DNA of 33,948 nt, taken from positions 35,404 through 69,351 of the forward strand of contig NZ_JADWYU010000100.1 of NCBI RefSeq assembly GCF_016786325.1. The letters run 5' to 3'. This DNA comes from Frankia nepalensis. GTDB lineage: Bacteria; Actinomycetota; Actinomycetes; Frankiales; Frankiaceae. The notes beneath the pieces were generated by a model that saw nothing but the letters and a program-made list of their open reading frames with translations, made no database searches and was not told where the DNA came from. Below, in pieces: positions 16,068 to 26,846 of this stretch. The translations under genes and the position numbers were made by a program. Within the stretch, counting starts at the first letter, position 1. Every line of letters begins with the position of its first letter.

Positions 16068-17063
16068 CTAGGCGCGGGCGGCCAAAGGACGGGTGACGGC
16101 GACGACGTCGGTCCACGAGGAGATGTCCGAGACCACGACGCCCCAGCGAGCGCCCTTCGCCGCGATCATCTGACCGTTGCCGACGTACATCCCGACGTGG
16201 CCCGGAGCTGCCACCGTGCCGTCCGTGCCGGGAATGAACAGCAGGTCGCCGGGCTGCAGGGTGACGCCGGAGACGCGCGGCCCGGCCCTGACCTGGTCGG
16301 TGGTAACCCGGGGCAGCTCGACGCCGATCGTCCGGTAGGCCGCCTGGACCAGCGACGAGCAGTCCCACGCGTCCGGGCCGTTCGCCCCCCACACATACGG
16401 CTTGCCGACCTGGGAGCGCACGAACTCGAGCACCGGCGCCACGTCCGCGGCCGACACCTCCCCGCCGGGCGCCAGCGCGTCGCCGTATTCCCTGGCCTTC
16501 GCCAGGATCGTGCGTACGTAGTTGCGCGTTTCCGGGTACGGCGGGACACCGGAGTAGCGCAGTACCGCGCCCGGGCCGGCGTTGTAGGCGGCGAGCATCT
16601 TCTCCTGCCCCGGGCCGGGAACCCGGGCCACCGTCGCCGCGACCGCGCAGTCGTACCGGGCCGCGGCCGGGATCGCGTCCTTCGGATCCCACACGTCGCC
16701 GCCGTTGCCGTGGGTAGCCCAGGTGCCCGGCATGAACTGGGCGATGCCCATCGCGCCGACCGGTGACTGAGCCTGCGGGTTGAAGCCGGATTCCTGGTGA
16801 AGCTGGGCGGCCAGCAGCGCGGGGGTGACCTCGGCACAGCCGGCGTCGTTGGCCGCCTGAATGATCAGGTCGAGGTACTCGTCCGGGATTCCCTCGGAAT
16901 TGGTGATCGTGCGTGGCCCACCGTCGTCATCGAGGAACAGGAACGGGCCGGCGATGAGCAGGACGAGAAGACAGATGAACAGCAGGATTCCGCCGAACAA
17001 CGCCGCGGTGCCGGCGCCGAGCCAGATCATCCATCCGCGCGTCCGCCGCGCCCCCCGAGCCAT
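16068..17063 (-). CDS. Two-domain peptidoglycan hydrolase: lytic transglycosylase plus NlpC/P60 (VirB1-like)
   Basis: 331 residues. A basic N-terminus and one membrane segment (about 13-44) anchor it outside the membrane. The SLT domain has catalytic E91 in HQESGFNP, GIAQFMPGTW at 106-115 and AAYNAGPG at 158-165. The C-terminal NlpC/P60 domain (from about 208) has nucleophile C235 in DCSSL and H289 in PGHVGMYVG. The pair cuts glycan strands and stem peptides. Such two-domain hydrolases are typical of Gram-positive conjugation and type IV secretion loci (TcpG/Orf14-like, VirB1 role), where they open the wall for the channel. The ATG at 17063 has GGGGAG about 8 nt upstream; it lies 12 bp after the lipoprotein gene in the same operon. 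Confidence 0.9.
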   Translation of the reverse strand: MARGARRTRGWMIWLGAGTAALFGGILLFICLLVLLIAGPFLFLDDDGGPRTITNSEGIPDEYLDLIIQAANDAGCAEVTPALLAAQLHQESGFNPQAQSPVGAMGIAQFMPGTWATHGNGGDVWDPKDAIPAAARYDCAVAATVARVPGPGQEKMLAAYNAGPGAVLRYSGVPPYPETRNYVRTILAKAREYGDALAPGGEVSAADVAPVLEFVRSQVGKPYVWGANGPDAWDCSSLVQAAYRTIGVELPRVTTDQVRAGPRVSGVTLQPGDLLFIPGTDGTVAAPGHVGMYVGNGQMIAAKGARWGVVVSDISSWTDVVAVTRPLAARA

Positions 17064-17075
17064 CCCCCGCTCCCC

Positions 17076-17738
17076 TCAGCGCCCGGGCGCGTCGCCCGCG
17101 TCGCCGGACAGGTCGGCGCCGGCGATCCGCCAGGCCCCGGCGGTGTCGCGCAGCAGCGTCACCGTCGGGGTTGAGACGGTCTCGACCGGCGTCGCGTTGT
17201 CCGCGGTGAAGGTGTCACGCACGTTGAGCAGGTAGACGACCCGCCCGGTGGCGGCGGTGTCGCCGAGGGGGGTCGCCGCGAGGACGGTGACGGTGGAGCG
17301 GGCGCCGCGCGCGCGCAGTTCCTCCCAGGCCTCGCCCTCCTCGCCCGCGCCGCCGTCGGTCAGCTGGGCGAGGAAGTCCGGGGTGAAGCAGTCGTCCGTC
17401 CCGGCCCGCTCGACGCCGGCGCCAGGACCGGGGTCGGTGCGCGCGTCGAACGACTGCCAGCGGGCGAAGCAGTGGACGGCGACCGCGGCCGGGTCGACCG
17501 GGTCCGGCGGCGCGCTGGCCTCGGTGCCGATCGTCGCGGTGGCGGTGGCCAGCGGCGGCCCAGGCGCCTGGCTCGCGCCGGGCGGCGGACCGGTGGTCGG
17601 CGGCGGCGTCGCCGAGGCGGCGGCCTGCTCGGCCGAATCCCGCAACGCGGAGCAACCGGTGGCGGCGAAGACGAGCGACAGCGTGGCCATGGCCGCCACG
17701 GCGGCCCCCCTCGCCCGCTCGAACGTCCGATCAGTCAT
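17076..17738 (-). CDS. Lipoprotein with NTF2-like/TcpC-like domain
   Basis: 220 residues from the ATG at 17738. The signal peptide reads MTDRTFERARG plus a hydrophobic run ending in a lipobox-like AATGC. A Pro/Ala-rich linker follows, then a compact domain of about 130 residues (AVHCFARWQSFD to TVTLLRDTAGAWRIAGADL) with the strand pattern of NTF2-like proteins such as VirB8/TcpC. I recognise the fold only by pattern. A GTG at 17798 that overlaps the upstream HTH stop as GTGA is an alternative start giving 240 residues; I prefer 17738 because it gives a normal signal peptide, but neither has a good Shine-Dalgarno. It lies in an operon between the HTH protein and the peptidoglycan hydrolase, so it is probably an outer-surface part of the secretion-like system. 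Confidence 0.7.
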   Translation of the reverse strand: MTDRTFERARGAAVAAMATLSLVFAATGCSALRDSAEQAAASATPPPTTGPPPGASQAPGPPLATATATIGTEASAPPDPVDPAAVAVHCFARWQSFDARTDPGPGAGVERAGTDDCFTPDFLAQLTDGGAGEEGEAWEELRARGARSTVTVLAATPLGDTAATGRVVYLLNVRDTFTADNATPVETVSTPTVTLLRDTAGAWRIAGADLSGDAGDAPGR

Positions 17739-17794
17739 GCCACCGCGCACCGGCGCCGCCGCCCGTTCGATGGGGAGACTCGGCCCGCCGGCGG

Positions 17795-18214
17795 TCACTC
17801 ACGGCCGTCTAGCCAGTCCCGCACCCGGCCGCGGCGGATCCGCCACTGGTGCCCGACCTTGCGAGCCGGGATGGCCCGTTCGGACAGCAGCCGCAGGACC
17901 GTGCTCTCCGAGAGCCGCAGCCAGCTGACGAGCTCGTCCACAGTCAGGACGTCGTCGTCGTCCAGACGAGGGGGCCGATGAGGCGGAAGCCCTCCCGCCA
18001 GGCCCGGGGTTCCGCCCGGATCGGCGGAGCTTGGGGTTCCCGCCAGATCGGCGAAGCCCGGGGATCCACTCGGATCGGCGGAACCGGTCCGGGAGGTCTG
18101 CCGGGAGCCCCGGGGCTCCGGCCGGATCCGGGGTTCCTGCCGAATCGGCGGAGCCGATCCGGCAGGTCCGGGAGCCGATCCGGCAGGTCCGGCGGTCGGC
18201 ACGCCCTCCTGCAT
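17795..18214 (-). CDS. Helix-turn-helix protein, excisionase/BldC type
   Basis: 139 residues from the ATG at 18214, with a GAAAGGGG Shine-Dalgarno about 8 nt upstream. The last ~55 residues form a MerR-like winged HTH of the HTH_17 family (LTVDELVSWLRLSESTVLRL, then KVGHQWRIRRGRVRDWL), as in excisionases, AlpA and BldC. It should bind DNA and may regulate the divergent operons, or be a recombination directionality factor left from a mobile element. Residues 1-80 are low complexity (GPAGSAP and GTP/ADP-like units) encoded by 21- and 27-bp tandem repeats. It heads the operon HTH, lipoprotein, hydrolase and is divergent from the MinD-like gene over a 394-bp gap. No integrase gene is near, which favours a regulator. 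Confidence 0.8.
   Translation of the reverse strand: MQEGVPTAGPAGSAPGPAGSAPPIRQEPRIRPEPRGSRQTSRTGSADPSGSPGFADLAGTPSSADPGGTPGLAGGLPPHRPPRLDDDDVLTVDELVSWLRLSESTVLRLLSERAIPARKVGHQWRIRRGRVRDWLDGRE
18006..18191 (-). repeat. 27-bp and 21-bp tandem repeats in the HTH gene
   Basis: Three 27-bp units begin with GGGGTTCC or GGGGATCC at 18006, 18033 and 18060 and contain GATCGGCG. A perfect 21-bp unit is doubled at 18150-18170 and 18171-18191. All periods are multiples of three, so the reading frame is kept and the repeats make the low-complexity N-terminus. Confidence 0.8.
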
Positions 18215-18608
18215 CGCGGCTGCCCCTTTCGAACGGGTCAGTAGTCAATACCGCTGACGCCCACGGAGGCATGAGGGCCGCCTCTCGCGGCAGTTCCGCA
18301 TCCGCCGCCGCGGCACGGCTCGAACGCGAGCCGCTTCGCGCGGAGGTGGCACGGGACAGAAAGGTCGCCGGCCTCGTTGCCGGCGGCGACGCGTCCCTCA
18401 ACCGCGGTGCCTGCCCGGGGGACACCCCATACCCCAGACGCGGTGACGGACGGTACACCACCCTTGGTAGCCATGGTTAGGCTCTATCGGAGCTTGTCAT
18501 ACTTCAGCGTCGCGGGTTACCCCGATCTGGTGGTGGCCCGGCGCAAGTAACGGTAAGTAATCCCAAGTGGGACCAACAAGCCTGAACCAGCCAGGAGGGC
18601 GACGGCAC
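18215..18608. other. Divergent promoter region between the HTH and MinD-like operons
   Basis: 394 bp, no supported gene. It must hold the promoters of both operons of the secretion-like island. On the plus strand TTGTCA (18494-18499) is a reasonable -35, but the hexamer 17 nt later (TTACCC) is a poor -10. On the minus strand a TTGACT lies near 18240 without a matching -10. CCTTGG and ATGG-type short palindromes are seen near 18462-18478. Confidence 0.4.
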
Positions 18609-20510
18609 GTGAGCAATGTGCCACCGACACCGTACGGCGAGGAAGGCGACGCGCGACCGGTATCCCTCATCGGCGCACAGTTCTCCGCGGCAAAGCCACC
18701 GCCCGGTGAGGGCGATGGTGATTTCCGTCACGGAGACGGCGCCTGGGATGACCCGGACTCGTCGGCTTCTTCCAGCCGGCCTGGCCGGCGCCGGCACCGC
18801 CGCGGCCGGGCGGGCGGCCCTCCGCCCGCGGCCGCGCCCCCCGGCGACGAGGCATTCCACCTGGACGACGGCCCGCAGGCACCGCCGCCCACGGGCCCGC
18901 GCCGGCGCGGCCGGCAGCCCGGGGAACAGCAGCAGTCCGGGGAACAGACGACCCGGCCGCTCCCGCCACCCGCCGACCCGCCGCCGGCCCCGAGTCAGCC
19001 GCCGGCCCCGAGTCAGCCATCGGCAAGGCCGGCCGCGGCGCGACCCACCGCCACGCCACCCGAGCCGGCGCGCGCCGAGCCGGCGCGGCCGGCGCGGCCG
19101 GGCTGGCTGCCGGCTACGCCGCACGTCTCCGCCCCCGGCGGCCCGCCGCCGACCTCGCCCGCGACCGCCCCGGCCGCCCCGGCCGCCGGCCGGGAAGCGC
19201 CCGCGGGCTCCCCTACGGCCAGGCCGGCGACGCCATCGCCCCCCGCGCCGGCCGCCCCCGCCACCAGCCGAGGCCGGCCCGCGGCCCAGCCACCGACGGC
19301 CAGGGCCCGTCCCGTAGGCCCTCCCGAGCCGGCCGAGCGATCCGAGCCAGCGCGAGCGGCCGCGCGGCCGGCCGAACCGGCGCGGGTGGCCAGGCCCGCC
19401 GCCGCCGGGCCGTCTCCCATACAGCAGGCCGTGCCGGAGAGTGCCTCGAGCACGGAGGTCACCAGGCGCCCGTCGGCCGAGCCACCGCTGCCGGCCGTGG
19501 TCGAGGACGACTGGGACTGGCCGGACGAGGACGACCTCGCCCCCTGGGACGAGATCCCGATGCGCGAGTCCCTTCCCGACCGGGCGGCGGCCGAGCTACC
19601 CGGTTCATGGCGGATCGGGATCACCTCGGCGTTCCCTTACTCGGGCACGACCACGCTGGTCGGCATCCTCGGCCTGGTCCTGGCCGGGGCGCGCGGGGAG
19701 TCGGTGCTCGCCGTCGACCTGCGGCCGAGCACCTGGCCGGACGAGGATCCGGACGAGCCACGCGGTGACCCGCTGTGCCCGCGGGTTGGCCTCCCCGGCG
19801 ACGTCACGGTCGCGGATGTCGCGCGCCGCCGCGGCGGAGGGCCCACCGGGCTACGCGCGATGATCGGGACCACGGGAGACGAGCCGGCGCTAGAGGTGGT
19901 GCCGCTGCGCCGGGGCGACGCCACGACCGGAGGTGGCGGCGCGGTGGTGCCCGCCGACGACACCGTCACGCCCGGGATGCTGCGCTCGGCCCTCAGCCAG
20001 CTCACCCGCGCCTATCCGCTGGTGCTCATGGACACCCCGGTGGACGCCCCGCTGGCGCCGACCGCGCTGCGGGCCGCCGACCTGGTCGTCGTCGTCAGCC
20101 TCGCGGCGCCCGGGGATCTGGACCGCACCGCGACCGCGCTGCGCGACCCGGCGGCCCCGCTGCTGCCCGTGGACCGGGACGGGCGGCGTCCTCCGGTCAT
20201 CGTCGCCGTGGTCTCGCCGCGCCGCGGCCGCTGGTCACCGCGCACGCGGGCCGCCGCCGGCCGGCTCGCCCGGCACGTGGACACGCTGGTCCGTATTCCC
20301 TACGAAAACCGGCTCGACCCGAGCCGGCGCGCGCCGGTAAGGATCCCACGGCTGCGCCCGAGTACCCGACGGTCGTATCTGCGGCTCGGCGTCACCGTCA
20401 TCGAGGCGCTGGTCCGGCTCGCGGCCGAGGAAACAGCCAAGGCACACGCAACGGTGAACGACGCGACTCGGGGGAGCACTCCGGAAACGCTGCGGACGCC
20501 CGTCGTATGA
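18609..20510 (+). CDS. MinD/ParA-like protein with proline-rich N-terminus and degenerate P-loop
   Basis: 633 residues from the GTG at 18609, with AGGAGG about 10 nt upstream; a GTG 14 codons earlier is possible but has no such site. Residues 1-300 are Pro/Ala/Arg-rich and disordered. An acidic patch (DWDWPDEDD) at about 301-309 leads into a SIMIBI-type ATPase fold: beta strand plus loop SAFPYSGTTT at 340-349, AVDLRPSTW, and the Walker-B-like LVLMDTP with D475. In MinD/ParA the loop reads KGGxGKT; here both lysines are absent, so ATP hydrolysis is doubtful. The layout recalls EspI-like proteins of type VII systems, but the neighbours are type IV secretion-like. It is the first gene of the plus-strand operon and may position or gate the machine. 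Confidence 0.75.
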   Translation: MSNVPPTPYGEEGDARPVSLIGAQFSAAKPPPGEGDGDFRHGDGAWDDPDSSASSSRPGRRRHRRGRAGGPPPAAAPPGDEAFHLDDGPQAPPPTGPRRRGRQPGEQQQSGEQTTRPLPPPADPPPAPSQPPAPSQPSARPAAARPTATPPEPARAEPARPARPGWLPATPHVSAPGGPPPTSPATAPAAPAAGREAPAGSPTARPATPSPPAPAAPATSRGRPAAQPPTARARPVGPPEPAERSEPARAAARPAEPARVARPAAAGPSPIQQAVPESASSTEVTRRPSAEPPLPAVVEDDWDWPDEDDLAPWDEIPMRESLPDRAAAELPGSWRIGITSAFPYSGTTTLVGILGLVLAGARGESVLAVDLRPSTWPDEDPDEPRGDPLCPRVGLPGDVTVADVARRRGGGPTGLRAMIGTTGDEPALEVVPLRRGDATTGGGGAVVPADDTVTPGMLRSALSQLTRAYPLVLMDTPVDAPLAPTALRAADLVVVVSLAAPGDLDRTATALRDPAAPLLPVDRDGRRPPVIVAVVSPRRGRWSPRTRAAAGRLARHVDTLVRIPYENRLDPSRRAPVRIPRLRPSTRRSYLRLGVTVIEALVRLAAEETAKAHATVNDATRGSTPETLRTPVV

Positions 20511-20559
20511 TTCGCCAGACCTGCGGTCCATTAGGGCGCAGTGCCCGCAGGAAGGGACC

Positions 20560-20988
20560 ATGATGATCGTCGACACCGCGTCCGCGGGGGCGACCATGCT
20601 GCTCGCGGCGGTTGTAGTCAACCCGGAAGACTCCAAGGCACCTGGAATCAACGCCCTGAAAGACCTGGTCAACGGCCTGGCGGCCTATGCGGTCGTCGCC
20701 GCGGTGGCCGCCGTACTGCTCGGCGGCATGGCCTGGGCGCTCGGCGAGCGGATGGGCATGGACCGGGCGTCGTCCGTCGGTAAGAGCGGCGTGCTCGCCG
20801 GCTTCGGGCTTGCTTTCCTCGTCGGGGCCGCCGCCGCGCTCGTCAACTTCTTCCTCGCGACCGGCAGCACCGCCTCCTCCGGCACACCGGACTCCGGCAC
20901 CGACACCAACGGCCAGCGACCGCCGGCCGTCGTCCAGCTGGTGGACCCTCCCGCCGGGGAACATGACGAACCTTCCGCATACTCCTGA
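20560..20988 (+). CDS. Small membrane protein, DUF6112/VirB2-pilin-like
   Basis: 142 residues (141 if the second ATG at 20563 is used, which is better spaced from the GGAAGGG Shine-Dalgarno). The first part (to about 37) ends in NALKDLVNGLA; two membrane segments follow at about 38-60 and 77-98, joined by a short polar loop with GERMGMDRA. The tail is Ser/Thr/Gly-rich and polar. Two short spans after a processed or hydrophobic N-terminus is the VirB2/TrbC layout, and proteins of the DUF6112 type occupy this place in actinobacterial conjugation-like clusters. Assignment is by topology and position. It sits 49 bp after the MinD-like gene; that gap can form a hairpin (CTGCGG at 20521 with CCGCAG at 20545). 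Confidence 0.6.
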   Translation: MMIVDTASAGATMLLAAVVVNPEDSKAPGINALKDLVNGLAAYAVVAAVAAVLLGGMAWALGERMGMDRASSVGKSGVLAGFGLAFLVGAAAALVNFFLATGSTASSGTPDSGTDTNGQRPPAVVQLVDPPAGEHDEPSAYS

Positions 20989-21001
20989 GATGTTCTCCGG
21001 G

Positions 21002-21017
21002 TACCGGCGGGCCGGTA
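21002..21017. promoter_or_regulatory. 16-bp inverted repeat between the pilin-like and VirB8-like genes
   Basis: TACCGGC and GCCGGTA flank GG, a perfect dyad in the 69-bp gap. It could be an operator or a weak hairpin. No function can be shown. Confidence 0.35.
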
Positions 21018-21057
21018 TTGGGATGATGTCCCGGGAGACGGGGAGGGGGAGCGCGCG

Positions 21058-21840
21058 TTGGTCGACCTCATGGACTGGGCCACCAGACGGCTGATCCTTG
21101 TGATCGCCGTGACGGCGATCGTCATGCTTCCCGCGGGCGTTGGCATCGGCTGGGCACTCGCCTCCAGCGGGTCGTCGGCGAGCCCCACCCCGCAAGCCCA
21201 GGCGTCGCAGGCCTCGACACCGCCTTCGCCGACCCAGTCCACCGTGGCCGTGGTCCCCTCGCCGAGCGCCGACGGCGGTGACCATACCGCCGAACCGGCC
21301 GGTTCGCTGCCCGGCGCGCCGAGCCGCGTCAACGAGTTCGGAATACCGGTCGGCTACCCCCACACCCAGGCCGGCGCCATCAGTGCTTGCGGCAACTACG
21401 TCTCGGCCTACATGAACTCGGGAAACCGTGAACCTAGTCGGATTCGTGCAGTTTTAAACTCGATCTCAGCGGCGGACGTAGCTGAGAGGCTAAGTAAGGC
21501 CATTGGCGACGCGGATGCGAAGACGGCGCAGAACTTTGGAATCCCATCGATAAATTCCCCGCAAGCCGCCTTCAATCTTCGAGTTGTGGGCTACCGCGTG
21601 CAAGATTTCGCAAGCAATAAGGCTTTAATCCAGATCTGGGCCACCGGAAGTGTTGGTGTATACGAGGGGTCTCCTGACCTTTCTCCACAGGAAAACTGGG
21701 GGACTGACATATGCACGGTCACATGGAACGGAGAAGATTGGAAACTGGCTGACGCCGGAAATGGTCCCAACGGCCCGGTGCCAACAGAACGTGCTTCCGA
21801 ACAGTTTCAGCGCTTCCTCCTGCAAGGAGCACCTGCGTGA
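21058..21840 (+). CDS. VirB8/TcpC-like membrane-anchored NTF2-like protein
   Basis: 260 residues. The TTG at 21058 is chosen because a GGGGAGGGGGA Shine-Dalgarno lies about 8 nt before it; an ATG four codons later is the alternative. One membrane span at about 11-35, a Ser/Pro/Gln linker to about 95, then a globular outer domain with the alternating strand pattern and terminal TVTWNGEDWKLAD stretch seen in VirB8/TcpC-like proteins. The role would be an assembly platform of the channel. The globular half has much lower GC than the rest of the gene (28 of 60 at 21601-21660 against 45 of 60 at 21181-21240) and two TTA leucine codons (21454, 21625). The stop overlaps the next start as GTGA. Confidence 0.65.
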   Translation: MVDLMDWATRRLILVIAVTAIVMLPAGVGIGWALASSGSSASPTPQAQASQASTPPSPTQSTVAVVPSPSADGGDHTAEPAGSLPGAPSRVNEFGIPVGYPHTQAGAISACGNYVSAYMNSGNREPSRIRAVLNSISAADVAERLSKAIGDADAKTAQNFGIPSINSPQAAFNLRVVGYRVQDFASNKALIQIWATGSVGVYEGSPDLSPQENWGTDICTVTWNGEDWKLADAGNGPNGPVPTERASEQFQRFLLQGAPA

Positions 21841-23192
21841 CCTCGTCCGACACGACACTCGCCGTTGGCTTTGACCCACTGTCCGGCATAAAGGACGCTC
21901 TCACCGGCGCGGTCTCTGGCACGGCGGATGCCTTTCTGGACTCCATTGGGACCGCGTTCTGCAACATGGCGGCGGATCTGTCGGCGTCGGTGTTCAGCTT
22001 CGCGGCCCAGAAGACGGCCGTTGACCTGCGAGCCGACTACGTGGTCGAGAACTACAACATCGTGTTCGGTGTTTCGATCATGGTCGTGACCGGGCTCTTC
22101 ATCTGCTCCTGTGTCGTCGGCGCGGTCCGCGGTGACCCGCACCTGTTCGCTCGGGCGGTGGCGTCGACCGGGACGGCGATTCTCGGGTCGTTCGTCGCAT
22201 TGACCTTGCTGCAGATGGTGCTCACCGCATCCGATGGCGTGGCCGATGCATTCGGTAACGGAGAGCCACTGGGTGCGAGCCTGGTGGCGCAGCTGCGTGC
22301 CCTGCCGGAGCAAGGCAACTTCGCGCTCGACATGGTTTTGTCGCTGCTGGTCGCGTTGTTCTCGTTCGCGCTGTTCGTAGTGCTTTATATCCGGAAGGTC
22401 GCGATCATCGCCGTGGCGGTGTTCATCCCGCTCTACCTCGCGGGACAGCCGTCGATGTCGACCAGCACCTGGATGAAGCGGGCCACCGAGATGCTGGTCG
22501 CCCTTATCTTCGCCAAGCCGGTGATCTACGCGATCTTCACACTGGGTGCCGGCATGGCGAGCGACTCCACCGGCTCCGCGGCGGATCAGACGCTGACCAT
22601 TCTTGGCGGAGTCGTGGTGATGATCGCGGCCGTGTTCTCACCGTTCCTGCTGATGCAGCTGTTCGGGTTCGCCGACGTGCACCTGATGCGCGCGGTCGGT
22701 GGCGCGGGCCGCCGCGGCGCGGCGTCGTTCGGTCAGGGCGCGGGCGCGCTGCTCGGTCACACCTCACGGGACACCTTCCGCGGCATCGGCGCCCGGCTGC
22801 AGACCCGTAACCGCGGCGTGCTCGACGCCGGCGCCGCGCTGCCCGCCGGCATCTCGGCCGGCGCCGGCTCGGCCCGGCCAACGGTCCGGGCCGCCCGCCC
22901 CGGCACCACCCGGCCCGGCGTGGCCGGCCGCCCGCGGATCGGCCGGCCGGCGGTGGCCACGGCCGGCGGCTCGGGCGTCGGCGCGGGTACCAGCGTGGTG
23001 CGTGGCGGCGCGGCCGCCGCGATCCCGGCCCGCTCCGCGGCGGGACGGGTCCCCGCGCGGGTCGGGACGGCCACTCGCGCAACCGCGCCCGCCGCCGGCA
23101 CGTCCCACACTTCGGGGACGGGTGGCCCATCGGCGCGGGTGGCCCGCCCGCCGGTGACGCCGCCCACCCGCCCGCGGGTACCCGGCGGCTGA
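21837..23192 (+). CDS. VirB6/TrbL-like polytopic membrane protein
   Basis: 451 residues from the GTG at 21837 (GTGA overlap, AAGGAG upstream). About six membrane segments: 74-97, 107-130, 163-184, 186-203, 218-240 and 252-275. The basic residues between the third and fourth spans (YIRKVAI) and the motif PFLLMQLFGFAD after the last span fit TrbL/VirB6-type proteins that form the inner-membrane channel in conjugation systems. The C-terminal ~160 residues are Ala/Gly/Pro/Arg-rich, basic and probably disordered on the cytoplasmic side. The first ~70 residues contain two cysteines and amphipathic helices. It is followed by tandem hairpins in a 148-bp gap before the next gene. Confidence 0.75.
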   Translation: MTSSDTTLAVGFDPLSGIKDALTGAVSGTADAFLDSIGTAFCNMAADLSASVFSFAAQKTAVDLRADYVVENYNIVFGVSIMVVTGLFICSCVVGAVRGDPHLFARAVASTGTAILGSFVALTLLQMVLTASDGVADAFGNGEPLGASLVAQLRALPEQGNFALDMVLSLLVALFSFALFVVLYIRKVAIIAVAVFIPLYLAGQPSMSTSTWMKRATEMLVALIFAKPVIYAIFTLGAGMASDSTGSAADQTLTILGGVVVMIAAVFSPFLLMQLFGFADVHLMRAVGGAGRRGAASFGQGAGALLGHTSRDTFRGIGARLQTRNRGVLDAGAALPAGISAGAGSARPTVRAARPGTTRPGVAGRPRIGRPAVATAGGSGVGAGTSVVRGGAAAAIPARSAAGRVPARVGTATRATAPAAGTSHTSGTGGPSARVARPPVTPPTRPRVPGG

Positions 23193-23340
23193 ACCGCTCG
23201 CGAACCGGCCGACGGGTTGACGGTCGCCGCCCGTCGGGCAAGGCGGGACGCGGCCGGTCACCGGCCGGCCGGCGCGGCCGGCCGCGCCGGGCATTGAGTT
23301 GGCGTCGATAACCATCTAGGACCGCGTTGGAATAGAGGTC
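23193..23340 (+). other. Gap with tandem GC-rich hairpins inside the secretion-like operon
   Basis: A 6-bp stem (GGCCGG 23252-23257 with CCGGCC 23261-23266) is followed by a perfect 22-bp palindrome (23269-23290). Just after it TTGAGT (23294-23299) and TAGGAC (23317-23322) are 17 nt apart, a weak promoter candidate. The gap may end the upstream message and restart it for the two ATPase-related genes. Confidence 0.45.
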
Positions 23341-24843
23341 ATGGTCGCGGAACGCAGCTACCGATTCGGCCCGCTCGAGCGGGGCGGCATCCTGCTCGGC
23401 CTACGCTGGCCGCAGCTCGGCCTCCTGGTCGGGGTGATGCTCTGCGTCCTTGGCGCGCTGCGCTCGCCGGTGCTGCTGGCACCGGCCTGGCTGCTGGTAG
23501 CAGCGGCGCTGGGCTTCGTCGCGTTCGTCCGGATCGAGGACCGTAATCTCGACCAGTGGGTGCCGATCCTGTTCGGCTACACGATGCAGAAGGTGACGGG
23601 CGAGACGGTGTTTCGCGGCGGGGTGTTCCGGCTGGGCCCGGACGAGGACCAGATCACCAGGACGGTGCTGCCCGGCCCGCTGTCCAGCCTGGTGATGCTC
23701 TCGGTTCCGGTGGGCAACGGCCGTTACGTGGCCGTCGTCAAGGACATCCGCAAGCAGACGTACACCGCGGTCCTGCAGGTGCAGGGCAGCCAGTTCGCGC
23801 TGCTGGAGTCCGGTGACCAGCAGGCCAGGGTGGACGCCTGGGGCGAGCTGCTGGCCGGGCTGACCGCCGGCGGTGGCCGGCTCGCCCGGATCCAGTGGCT
23901 GGAGCGCACCCTGCCGGACTCGGGCGACCAGCTTCAGCGGCACTGGCGGGTCGGGGGGCACCACGACGACTCCTGGGCGGCGCAGGCCTACCAGGAGGTC
24001 ATCGACGCGGCCGGCCCCGTGGCCCAGCGGCACGAGACCTACCTGTCGTTCCAGCTGCGGGCCCGGGACGCCCGCCGGGCGATCCAGCGTGCCGGCGGCG
24101 GCGACCGGGCGGCGTGCGCGGTCCTGCTCGGCGAGCTGCGCACGATGGAGGCGGCGCTGGCGCGGGCGCAGATCAGCACGGTCGGCTGGCTGCCGCCGCG
24201 GGCGCTGGCGGCGGTCATCCGTACCACCTATGACCCGTACTCGGTCGACATGATCGACGCCCGTGGCGGCGCGTCCACCGACCTCGCCGGCGGCCTGAAG
24301 GGCCTGCCGTCCGGGATCGACCCGGCGGTCGCCGGTCCGGTGCGCGCCGTCGCGGCCTGGGACCACTACCGGACCGACTCCGGGTTCCACACGACCTACT
24401 GGATCAACGGCTGGCCGCGGGTCCCGTCGCCGGCGGCGTTCCTCGCGCCGTTGCTGATGGAGACGACCTGCCGCCGCACCGTCTCGCTGGTGGTCGAGCC
24501 GCTGCCGGGCCGCAAGGCGGAGAAGGCGGTCAACCGGCGCCGGATGGCCCATCTCGGGGAGCAGCAGATGCGTGACAAGGTGGGCAAGGTGACGACGCAA
24601 CGCGACGTCACCGAGGCGGACGAGGTGGAGCGGCGCGAGCAGGAGCTGGTCGCCGGGTTCGGCGCGTTCCGGTTCCACGGCTTCGTGACGGTCTCCGCCG
24701 ACGATCTCGACAGTCTGGCCGATGCCTGCGGCGAGGCGGAGACGCTGGCCTCGCGCAGCCGGCTGGAGATGGTGCGCCTGGTCGGCGAGCAGGACCAGGG
24801 CTTCAACGTCAGCGCGTTGCCGCTCGCGGTGGGCGTCTCATGA
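23341..24843 (+). CDS. SCO6880-type protein: PrgI-like membrane hairpin plus VirB4 N-terminal-like domain
   Basis: 500 residues. Two membrane spans near the N-terminus (about 24-40 and 43-63), directly after a short start (YRFGPLERGGILLGL), match PrgI-family proteins. The long cytoplasmic remainder resembles the N-terminal, non-ATPase half of VirB4 as found in the actinobacterial SCO6880 family. There is no Walker motif. The ATG at 23341 is preceded by GAGGT only one nucleotide away, too close for a normal Shine-Dalgarno; a GGA at 9 nt may serve. The stop overlaps the start of the VirB4-like ATPase as ATGA, so the two proteins are coupled and probably act as the two halves of one VirB4 unit. 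Confidence 0.8.
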   Translation: MVAERSYRFGPLERGGILLGLRWPQLGLLVGVMLCVLGALRSPVLLAPAWLLVAAALGFVAFVRIEDRNLDQWVPILFGYTMQKVTGETVFRGGVFRLGPDEDQITRTVLPGPLSSLVMLSVPVGNGRYVAVVKDIRKQTYTAVLQVQGSQFALLESGDQQARVDAWGELLAGLTAGGGRLARIQWLERTLPDSGDQLQRHWRVGGHHDDSWAAQAYQEVIDAAGPVAQRHETYLSFQLRARDARRAIQRAGGGDRAACAVLLGELRTMEAALARAQISTVGWLPPRALAAVIRTTYDPYSVDMIDARGGASTDLAGGLKGLPSGIDPAVAGPVRAVAAWDHYRTDSGFHTTYWINGWPRVPSPAAFLAPLLMETTCRRTVSLVVEPLPGRKAEKAVNRRRMAHLGEQQMRDKVGKVTTQRDVTEADEVERREQELVAGFGAFRFHGFVTVSADDLDSLADACGEAETLASRSRLEMVRLVGEQDQGFNVSALPLAVGVS

Positions 24844-26846
24844 CGACCCCGGAGTCAGCCGGCCGGAGAAGCCCCGCCGTCGCCGAGAGCGGTCCCGTCG
24901 CCGGCCGCGAGGACCGGTACGCCGGGTACGACGACCAAGCCGAGTACGAGCAAGCTGAGTACGACGACCAAGCCGGGTACGACGACTACGAGTACGACGA
25001 ACCCGGTGAGCCCGATCAGACCGGCGATTCCGACGGTTATGGCGACGGCTACCAGGACGGCGACGAGTACGCCGCCGACCGCGGCCGCGCCGGCCAGCTC
25101 GTGGGGCCGGTGGCCCGCGGGCCGGTGCGCGGTCCGGACTACGACCCCGGCCGGGACGCGACCGGCTATGTCGACCTCGGTGGCAACCCGCGCAAGCGGC
25201 GCCGGTCCACCAAGCGGGCGGCGAAGTCGGCCGCCGCGGCGGAGCGGGCCGAGCGGGTGGCGACGCGCCGTGCCCAGGCGGCGCTGCGCCGCGGCGCCCA
25301 GCCGCCCGCGCTGCGCGGCCCGTTCCGCGGCCAGACCTTCCACAAGCTGCGCCTACCGGCGCACATGGAGACGACGGCGCAGATCGCCGGGATCTACCCG
25401 TTCGTGGTCGACTCGGGCCTGGACGCACCCGGCATGTTCATCGGCCGGCACGTGTGGTCGGGCAACTCGTTCACGTTCGACGTCTTCGAGCTCTACCGTC
25501 AGCAGGTCATCGAGAACCCGAACTTCGCGGTTTTCGGCGCGGTCGGCTCTCGCAAGTCGTCGCTGTTGAAGACGCTGATGTCGCGCGGCGCCGCGTTTGG
25601 CTACCAGGCGGCGGTGCCCTGCGACCCGAAGGGCGAGTACACGAGGCTCGCGCGCCGGCTCGGCTGCGAGCCGACCTACATCGGCCCGGGCATGTCGACC
25701 CGGCTGAACCCGCTGGACGCGCCGCCCCGGCCGCGCGGGATCCACGACCACGACTGGGCGCGCGAGGTCAAGCGGGCCCGCTCGGCGCTGCTCGCCTCGC
25801 TGATCGAGACGGCGAAGGGCGTGCCGCTCACCCCGGCGGAGCACACCGCGATCGACCTGGCGCTCGACGTCGTCAGCCGGCAGGTCACCGGCGCCACCAC
25901 GGACCGCTGGGCGACGCCGCTACTGCCGCAGGTGCTCGACGCGATGACGGAGCCCACCGAGGCGGACTGCGTCGGCCTGCCGATGACCGCGACCGAGCTG
26001 CGCGACGCCTCCCGGGACGCGACCCTCACCCTGCGCCGGCTCACCAACGGCGCGCTCGGCGGCCTGTTCGACGGGCCGACGACCTCGCCGCTCGACTTCG
26101 ACAAGCCGATCGCCGTGCTGAACCTGGAGCGGGTGCAGGGCTCGGACGAGATGATCGCGCTGATCATGACCTGCGCGCAGGGCTGGATGGAAGCCGCTCT
26201 GATGCGCCAGGACGGCGTGCAGCGTTATGTGGTCTACGACGAGTGCTGGCGGCTGATGCGCTTCGCGGGGCTGGTCCGCCGGCTGTCGGCGCAGCAGAAG
26301 CTCGCCCGCCAGTGGGGCTGCGCGAACGCGATCGTGGCGCACCGGATCTCCGACCTGCTCTCCGCCTCTCCCGATTCGGTCGAGGTCGCCAAGGGCCTGC
26401 TGGCCGAGACCTCGACGCGGATCCTCTACAAGCAGGCCACCGACCAGGTGGCGGCAACCCAGCAGGCCCTCGGCCTGACCGACGTCGCCGCCGACCTGCT
26501 GCCCCGGCTCGACCCGGGGTTCGCCCTGTGGCTGATCGGCCAGCGGGCGTTCTACGTCGAGCACGTGGTCGGTGACATGGAGATCCCGGTCGTGCTGAAC
26601 GGCTCGAAGATGCACGGCGAGGTGGACGACACCAACCTCACCCCCGAGGACCTCGACCCGGCCGAGCTGGACCCGCCCGGGATGGGGCCGGAGGACTTCG
26701 CCGGCGGCCGCTGGACCCCGCTCGGCGCGGCGGACGAGCCCGGGGCCATCGGCGCCGACGGTTTCGACGTCTCCATCGCCTACCGCGACGACGAGGAGCC
26801 GGACGGCACCACGGTCCGCGTCCCCCCGGGCCACCCGGCCTTCTAG
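24840..26846 (+). CDS. VirB4-like secretion ATPase (motor half)
   Basis: 668 residues from the ATG at 24840 (ATGA overlap). Residues 25-80 are acidic Tyr/Asp/Gln near-repeats (EYDDQAGYDD), followed by a basic helix at about 118-155. The ATPase domain has a Walker A FGAVGSRKSS (233-241; R238 stands where glycine is usual before the lysine), a Walker B VVYDE (464-468) and the arginine-finger/sensor region IVAHRISD at 498-505. The stretch NPLD (about 290) and EVDD tail also fit VirB4/TraC-like ATPases that power type IV secretion. It is the last gene of the plus-strand operon and is convergent with the NERD gene (24-bp gap). VirD4-type features are missing, so I read it as VirB4. Confidence 0.85.
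   Translation: MTTPESAGRRSPAVAESGPVAGREDRYAGYDDQAEYEQAEYDDQAGYDDYEYDEPGEPDQTGDSDGYGDGYQDGDEYAADRGRAGQLVGPVARGPVRGPDYDPGRDATGYVDLGGNPRKRRRSTKRAAKSAAAAERAERVATRRAQAALRRGAQPPALRGPFRGQTFHKLRLPAHMETTAQIAGIYPFVVDSGLDAPGMFIGRHVWSGNSFTFDVFELYRQQVIENPNFAVFGAVGSRKSSLLKTLMSRGAAFGYQAAVPCDPKGEYTRLARRLGCEPTYIGPGMSTRLNPLDAPPRPRGIHDHDWAREVKRARSALLASLIETAKGVPLTPAEHTAIDLALDVVSRQVTGATTDRWATPLLPQVLDAMTEPTEADCVGLPMTATELRDASRDATLTLRRLTNGALGGLFDGPTTSPLDFDKPIAVLNLERVQGSDEMIALIMTCAQGWMEAALMRQDGVQRYVVYDECWRLMRFAGLVRRLSAQQKLARQWGCANAIVAHRISDLLSASPDSVEVAKGLLAETSTRILYKQATDQVAATQQALGLTDVAADLLPRLDPGFALWLIGQRAFYVEHVVGDMEIPVVLNGSKMHGEVDDTNLTPEDLDPAELDPPGMGPEDFAGGRWTPLGAADEPGAIGADGFDVSIAYRDDEEPDGTTVRVPPGHPAF

Follow-up and report, generated by a model that had tools for sequence, protein, structure and literature searches.

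Gene content and setting of the island

The window analysed here, a whole stretch of 33,948 nucleotides from Frankia nepalensis (GCF_016786325.1, contig NZ_JADWYU010000100.1, positions 35,404 to 69,351), carries at positions 16068-26846 an island of nine genes in two divergent operons which resembles the channel of a Gram-positive type IV secretion system (T4SS). The source genome (G000; genomes, contigs and loci are numbered with G, C and L) comprises 10.73 Mb in 398 contigs. An earlier note, made from the sequence alone, had listed in two divergent operons a hydrolase, a lipoprotein, a helix-turn-helix (HTH) protein, a MinD-like protein and VirB8-, VirB6- and VirB4-type genes; profile searches and a reading of the window proteins confirmed this, and structure models fitted the VirB8-like and VirB4 identities. 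The named relatives found were Frankiaceae, the nearest in the VirB4 tree being a Pseudofrankia.

The rightward operon (plus strand) encodes six proteins. The first is a MinD-like protein of 647 amino acids (18567..20510), named from weak profile matches and an alignment of orthologues. It is followed by a DUF6112 protein (20560..20988; PF19607, 35.7 bits, cut-off 25) with three hydrophobic segments, which is pilin/VirB2-like by topology only, and by the VirB8-like protein (21058..21840), with one transmembrane segment, a linker modelled at low confidence and a C-terminal NTF2/VirB8 fold (approximately residues 100-240). The model of the latter fitted the VirB8-type NTF2 fold, but other NTF2 folds scored nearly as high, and the name therefore rests on fold, topology and neighbours together. 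Downstream lie a VirB6-like polytopic membrane protein of the SCO6881 type (21837..23192; six hydrophobic segments; NF047967, E 9.7e-13, under the curated cut-off), a SCO6880-family protein of 500 amino acids (23341..24843; NF042935, 368 bits; two hydrophobic segments), presumed to combine PrgI with the N-terminal domain of VirB4, and a VirB4 ATPase of 668 amino acids (24840..26846), whose structure model fitted VirB4 and whose NCBIfam and Pfam matches were under the curated cut-offs. No PDB relatives of the SCO6880-family and VirB8-like proteins were found by sequence at E values up to 1.

The leftward operon (minus strand) encodes a VirB1-like wall hydrolase of 331 amino acids (16068..17063) with an N-terminal membrane segment and SLT transglycosylase and NlpC/P60 domains (PF01464, 57.1 bits; PF00877, 78.5 bits; both above cut-off), a predicted lipoprotein of 240 amino acids (17076..17798) and an HTH_17/excisionase-family DNA-binding protein, likely a regulator (17795..18214; PF12728, 40 bits, cut-off 27; TIGR01764, 39.1 bits, cut-off 28.8). 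Cys49 of the lipoprotein was invariant in 17/17 aligned rows; the likeness to NTF2 ascribed to it in the earlier note was not shown, and on comparison there was no support for it as a relative of the VirB8-like protein. Taking hydrolase, DUF6112, VirB8-like, VirB6-like, SCO6880-type and VirB4 proteins together, the channel set appears nearly complete and of the Gram-positive type.

Proline and alanine make up 42% of the first 330 residues of the MinD-like protein; this N-terminal region, Pro/Ala-rich in the window, is very variable among relatives. Where its P-loop position could be seen in the alignment it reads FPYSGTTT, without the usual lysine, a loss which is not special to the locus because the relative in L110 lacks the lysine too.

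One flank of the island holds trxA, trxB, a sigma/anti-sigma pair, murJ and cca (named by recognition of sequence, not by profile), and the other a NERD-domain gene (PF08378 match) and egtABCD (again by recognition). There is no tRNA gene within the window, and no integrase was recognised by eye among its proteins, integrase profiles and att repeats not having been searched.

Conservation and chromosomal position

A VirB4 search reaching close relatives only returned 23 loci, and the titles of their contigs all name Frankia, Pseudofrankia, Parafrankia or Protofrankia. The SCO6880 gene adjoined VirB4 in 23/23, and the nine genes were found in identical order in 13/23 contigs, the other 10 stopping before the hydrolase (the MinD-like match of L025 was short by BLAST and longer by profile). 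A SCO6880 orthologue was present in 31/35 genomes of the order: as a single match of 350 bits or more in 29, and in two pieces, separated by runs of N, in G023 and G025. A second, related SCO6880 type (425-430 bits; G002, G007, G008, G019) was excluded from this count. The runs were read in L028, L030 and L127, which match the contigs of these two genomes in length; they also account for apparent frameshifts in the SCO6880 gene of L028 and L030 (289 and 337 N within the 4 kb inspected), which are not mutations. Parts only were found in G006 and G010, where the left operon stands at the ends of contigs and a separate contig bears a VirB8-like gene, and no part of the locus was found in G014 and G016 (63% complete).

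The distance from the SCO6880 gene to dnaA was 33-82 kb in 11/12 genomes, that of F. nepalensis included (G029 was treated as circular); in the twelfth, G009, dnaA and the locus are on different contigs. The gene used as query was recognised as dnaA from its sequence and gene neighbours. A fixed chromosomal place of the island was thus borne out in relatives. Searching the surroundings of the locus for DnaA-box and parS motifs gave nothing useful. In G003 (L120, C1 at about 23-32 kb) CRISPR-cas-like genes, recognised by sequence, lie between dnaA and the island.

The absence of linked DNA-processing genes, stated in the earlier note, held in relatives for VirD4 and the relaxase families searched. 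PF02534 (VirD4) was matched in 22/35 genomes, PF08751 (TrwC) in 19/35 and the PF03432 relaxase in 0/35. No PF02534 or PF08751 match lay on the locus contig of any draft, which may miss genes or linkage, FtsK/TraB and other relaxase families not having been searched; among the complete genomes (G001, G003, G005, G029, G030, G031) the nearest match was a TrwC about 250 kb away, in G029. Judged from conservation, order and position, this is a core locus of the Frankiaceae, probably vertically inherited and belonging to the chromosome rather than to a mobile element.

Three further, distant SCO6880-type loci were seen in the F. nepalensis genome, on contigs C77, C144 and C354 (L007-L010, L114-L117; that on C354 under cut-off). 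A VirD4 match was seen on C77 too, and each of the three contigs has TrwC matches about 49-65 kb from the locus, so these loci are probably integrative and conjugative elements (ICEs).

An altered P-loop in VirB4

The Walker A motif of the window VirB4 (GAVGSRKS; 25536..25559, plus strand) carries arginine (R238) in place of the glycine before the P-loop lysine. The consensus among carriers was G[AS]VGSRKS, and arginine was found at this position in 31/31 carriers, compared with glycine in 55/55 other family rows of the alignment; the Frankiaceae locus does not have a canonical Walker A motif. As alignment rows are not independent (several per genome), R238 was counted per genome (the window's own, L039-L062 and L139-L144). 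Rows shorter than 330 amino acids were left out, as were L001, L006, L008, L009, L010, L011, L028, L030, L063 and L127.

A second difference lies at N428 and E430 (motif VLNLER; 26121..26129, plus strand), which were present in 48/48 Frankiaceae rows, compared with aspartate and serine in 55/55 other rows. Among the 46 columns listed as conserved at 85% or above in the other rows, the Frankiaceae differed at 8; three (R238, N428, E430) were invariant in all other rows and five were less strict, so VirB4 has diverged elsewhere too. The P-loop lysine was kept in 51/51 rows and Walker B (VVYDE in the window) in 44/44, and this conservation of the rest of the site argues against simple loss.

The P-loop glycine in question matters for nucleotide binding in P-loop proteins. 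Its replacement by arginine suggests that this VirB4 may bind or hydrolyse ATP abnormally, or may have become mainly structural or regulatory; that the change would impair the ATPase seems to us an evenly balanced proposition.

Exchange of the VirB8-like outer domain

The 3' part of the VirB8-like gene (21361..21840, plus strand) has a guanine plus cytosine (GC) content of 0.556, compared with 0.70-0.78 for the other island genes, and corresponds approximately to a cassette which is exchanged in relatives. Between L012 and L013, DNA identity was 94-99% across the gene for the DUF6112 protein and the initial third of that for the VirB8-like protein, fell to 46-57% over the approximately 450-500 bp encoding the VirB8 domain, showed milder dips (77-89%) near the end of the VirB6-like gene and beyond it, and was 95-99% over the SCO6880 gene. 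Between L016 and L017, identity was 91-100% over about 8 kb, save two end windows, and 44-63% over the VirB8 domain. These two pairs are the strong evidence for exchange.

When VirB8-domain classes were compared with the SCO6880 tree (22 rows with VirB8-like scores above 250 and SCO6880 scores above 1000; L127 and L128 dropped), 8 changes were needed for 7 classes (minimum 6, shuffled mean 13.1), and stricter clustering of the domain gave 11 changes for 8 classes. The classes thus mostly follow the SCO6880 tree, but need extra changes. Among Pseudofrankia-type loci, the window and L012 share one class and L013, L123, L124 and L126 another. The genome of F. nepalensis gave a single match to the VirB8-like gene, with no second (silent donor) copy at E values up to 0.001, and the simplest reading of the pattern would be allelic exchange between strains. 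That it is the outer domain which is exchanged suggests that this domain faces something variable outside the cell.

Selection and expression

The ratio of nonsynonymous to synonymous change (pN/pS; six pairs per gene, with shared members) was lowest for the SCO6880 gene (0.05-0.10), the slowest-evolving gene of the island, followed by VirB4 (0.16-0.23) and the VirB6-like gene (0.20-0.24); these core genes are under strong purifying selection. Selection on the lipoprotein gene was weaker than on the core (0.34-0.49).

Published transcript data for Frankia strain CcI3 include two genes which we assign to this locus. Reads per kilobase per million mapped reads (RPKM) in the top-100 lists were 899 for Francci3_0038 in 5-day NH4 cells, and 779 in 3-day N2 cells and 693 in 5-day NH4 cells for Francci3_0037; neither gene is in the 3-day NH4 top-100 list as given there, and the old culture was called starved by its authors (PMC3188489). 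The conserved VirB4 of this strain is gi 86738757, and Francci3_0037 is gi 86738760 (PMC2266912). The gene order in G003 (L121, taken as CcI3) is VirB4, SCO6880, VirB6-like, VirB8-like, DUF6112, and from this order and the gi numbers we infer that Francci3_0037 is the VirB8-like gene and Francci3_0038 the DUF6112 gene.

Relationship to cmd and to conjugative elements

The SCO6880 family was matched in 170/393 genomes drawn evenly from the class, so this type of machine is common. The closest studied relative of the window locus is cmdABCDEF of Streptomyces (SCO4126-4131 in S. coelicolor), a chromosomal operon with a VirB4-like CmdB, a SCO6880-like CmdC and a SCO6881-like CmdD; homologues of all three lie in one operon in the window. 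Profiles built from the window's SCO6880 orthologues scored 123-125 bits against cmd-type loci versus 50 bits against L064, of the main SCO6880 branch. Two of the loci compared, L108 and L109, are probably cmd itself: both have its gene set, and in L108 the P-loop lysine is residue 90, the residue mutated in CmdB.

The order DUF/pilin-like, VirB8-like, VirB6-like, SCO6880, VirB4 is common to L108/L109 and the window, and an opposite-strand SLT plus P60 gene lies about 4-5 kb from cmd with unrelated genes between. Unlike the window locus, cmd keeps a gene, cmdA, at the place of VirD4, has a normal VirB4 P-loop and, over the 20 kb that were read, gave no match for a MinD, lipoprotein or HTH gene. 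The VirB8-like region is also less conserved between L108 and L109, yet with no sharp cassette and no low GC. The cmdA-position gene of L108 (5835-7451) gave a TraG-D_C match of 23.5 bits (cut-off 22), because of which cmdA looks like a degenerate coupling protein.

Deletions in cmd impair sporulation and chromosome segregation, with 8% anucleate spores for the cmdB deletion and 6% for the cmdA-F deletion versus 0.1%, while deletion of cmdA does not (PMC2782261). This dispensability of cmdA parallels the absence of VirD4 from the Frankiaceae locus. The same authors noted that SCO6878, SCO6880 and SCO6881 resemble cmdB, cmdC and cmdD (SCO6880 and SCO6881 'highly resemble' cmdC and cmdD) and that three cmd genes resemble transfer genes of plasmid SLP2, and found transfer of an SLP2-derived plasmid unchanged by cmd deletion (PMC2782261); it is through cmd only, by that paper, that the SLP2 tra genes are likened to the window locus.

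In quick SCO6880 and VirB4 trees (7 and 10 Frankiaceae rows, SH-aLRT support only; the VirB4 tree omits L001 and L110), the Frankiaceae locus was sister to L094, a 3.7-kb contig without context on a long branch, and long-branch warnings name both L094 and cmd. SCO6880-type conjugative elements (for example L111, L095, L101) share the channel genes with the window locus but differ in having a canonical P-loop and, in 9/16 loci of the same tree half (L094-L107, L130, L131; the nearest loci) and in L111, a VirD4-like gene within the stretch read. The L111 element belongs to a different Frankiaceae genome, branches further away and is more complete: besides VirD4 and a 1240-amino-acid TrwC relaxase it has a divergent SLT plus P60 hydrolase and MinD-like, DUF-type, VirB8-like, VirB6-like, SCO6880 and VirB4 genes. 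The same series from divergent hydrolase to VirB4 was seen in L110 (G007:C253), followed by housekeeping-looking genes; neither VirD4 nor a relaxase was matched over the 16 kb that were read there, and L110 may be another domestication.

Possible function of the island

We lean towards the explanation that the island encodes a vertically inherited, domesticated type IV envelope complex of the Frankiaceae which serves hyphal development. That it is a domesticated, non-mobile channel is the part held with high confidence; a cmd-like developmental (or cell-envelope) role is the best-supported mechanism, argued from the Streptomyces operon and given about even chances. The island probably serves the cell rather than a mobile element because the related Streptomyces set is needed for normal spore formation. 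In such a mechanism, as for the cmd operon, the wall hydrolase would open the peptidoglycan, the VirB8/VirB6/SCO6880/VirB4 complex would sit in the membrane with the VirB8 domain outside, and the complex would serve septation, sporulation and chromosome partition, perhaps passing DNA or protein across the septum. Of the two roles considered in the earlier note, a domesticated conjugation apparatus stands as the best reading of a Gram-positive machine without a DNA-processing module at a fixed place, whereas export of protein was not supported: there was no evidence either way beyond the channel itself, and the studied relative has a developmental phenotype.

Several observations weigh against a developmental role. 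It is argued for Frankia by analogy only. S. coelicolor null mutants in SCO6878 and SCO6881 sporulate normally (PMC2782261), so not every such cluster is developmental, and CmdB needs its P-loop lysine (PMC2782261), whereas the Frankia P-loop is altered. The best trees group the window locus with L094 and not with cmd; a tree that joins it to cmd is 9.4 log units worse but is not rejected (approximately unbiased test, P = 0.104), so a single domestication shared with cmd can be neither affirmed nor dismissed. The MinD-like (pN/pS 0.38-0.56) and VirB8-like (0.34-0.56) genes are under weaker selection, and the expression data are tied to the locus through gi numbers and gene order.

Foremost among the alternatives, and unlikely in our estimation, is a protein-exporting T4SS whose effectors would reach plants or rival microbes. 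A channel and a wall hydrolase with no genes for DNA processing beside them would suit it, and some protein-exporting T4SS lack VirD4. In the exoproteome of Parafrankia soli, 'T4SS' proteins, of this or another locus, are reported to increase with root exudates (PMC11093716), and according to a survey of ICEs such systems may often have been domesticated for the transport of proteins (PMC3158045). However, the locus is also present in Pseudofrankia asymbiotica, a non-symbiont by name, and no linked effector was shared among five VirB4-NERD stretches. The latter is thin evidence, with no effector prediction run; only L025 (five genes called) and L020 (three) gave called genes, which differ; none were called in L128 and L123, and VirB4 alone in L121. 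The VirB4-NERD gap itself measures 25 bp in the window and up to about 9 kb elsewhere, with a protein-kinase-like gene in L025 and a 1320-amino-acid protein in L020.

Next, and rather improbable, is a chromosomal, relaxase-less machine that exchanges DNA in the manner of the archaeal Ced and Ted systems, moving DNA between hyphae or taking it up. These are domesticated VirB4/VirB6/VirB2 sets without a relaxase, joined in Ted loci by a VirC1/ParA-like gene (PMC9905601); swapping of the VirB8-like outer domain between strains is what might be expected of a contact surface. Ced and Ted differ in their known DNA import and in that VirB8 goes unmentioned in the main text, the likeness being by description only (PMC9905601). 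An altered P-loop in every VirB4 carrier would be odd for a DNA motor, and no DNA-uptake gene was recognised by eye among the window proteins, no profile search having been made. A more speculative proposal, which we consider distinctly improbable, is that the channel is a hyphal strain-recognition device, in which an ATPase-altered VirB4 and a selected VirB8 cassette would set which partner hyphae (or phages or bacteriocins) can be engaged, with contact, fusion or DNA exchange only between matching alleles; strains differing in the VirB8 domain could be compared for partner or phage range.

It is very unlikely that resident ICEs which bring relaxase and VirD4 use the island in trans as their conjugation channel. 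PF02534 is found elsewhere in the genome in 20/31 carriers (11 are without it) and PF08751 in 18/31 (13 without), but five carriers (G012, G022, G025, G026, G034) lack both, though drafts may miss genes, and the L111 element has channel genes of its own. Least likely of all is a decaying remnant of an ancient ICE, to which the excisionase-family HTH gene and the altered P-loops of VirB4 and the MinD-like protein might point; it is disfavoured by the low pN/pS of the core genes, by intact frames (the apparent breaks in two genomes being runs of N), by the retention of the locus in genomes of 5.0-5.4 Mb and by the high transcript level of two genes in CcI3, as mapped above.

Relation to published work and biological meaning

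Parts of this picture are in print already: the conservation of a VirB4 in Frankia since 2008, the cmd operon since 2009 and, since 2025, T4SS of Patescibacteria which have no relaxase and lie near dnaA. In 2008 one VirB4 homologue (CcI3 gi 86738757), very probably the VirB4 of this island, was described as common to three Frankia strains and near the origin; the account, as far as available, discusses only this VirB4 and other VirD4/VirB4-related genes, and its authors were sceptical that such genes make up an important route of export (PMC2266912). The Patescibacteria systems are alike in being mostly relaxase-less, chromosomal, of Gram-positive type and, in some classes, near dnaA; they differ in phylum and in an epibiotic lifestyle, and are likened here by description only (PMC12102498). 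A survey of T4SS-type ICEs demanded integrase, VirD4, VirB4 and relaxase together (PMC3218068), a requirement under which the Frankia locus would go uncounted, and in the available text of the review PMC12857230 neither 'domesticat' nor 'sporulation' occurs. In the part of the open-licence literature surveyed, no account was found of the whole Frankia island with its fixed place, of the altered VirB4 P-loop or of a swapped VirB8 cassette in this genus; the latter two are apparently new. The cmd relationship, the altered P-loop, the cassette exchange and the closeness to dnaA all go beyond the earlier note.

The part played by cmd in Streptomyces sporulation is unexplained, and a relative without a coupling protein and with an altered P-loop lets one ask whether such complexes move DNA. 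If the explanation favoured here is true, the Frankiaceae would be a second group of filamentous actinobacteria, along with Streptomyces, in which conjugation machinery has become an organ of the envelope or of development, and this may have happened independently.

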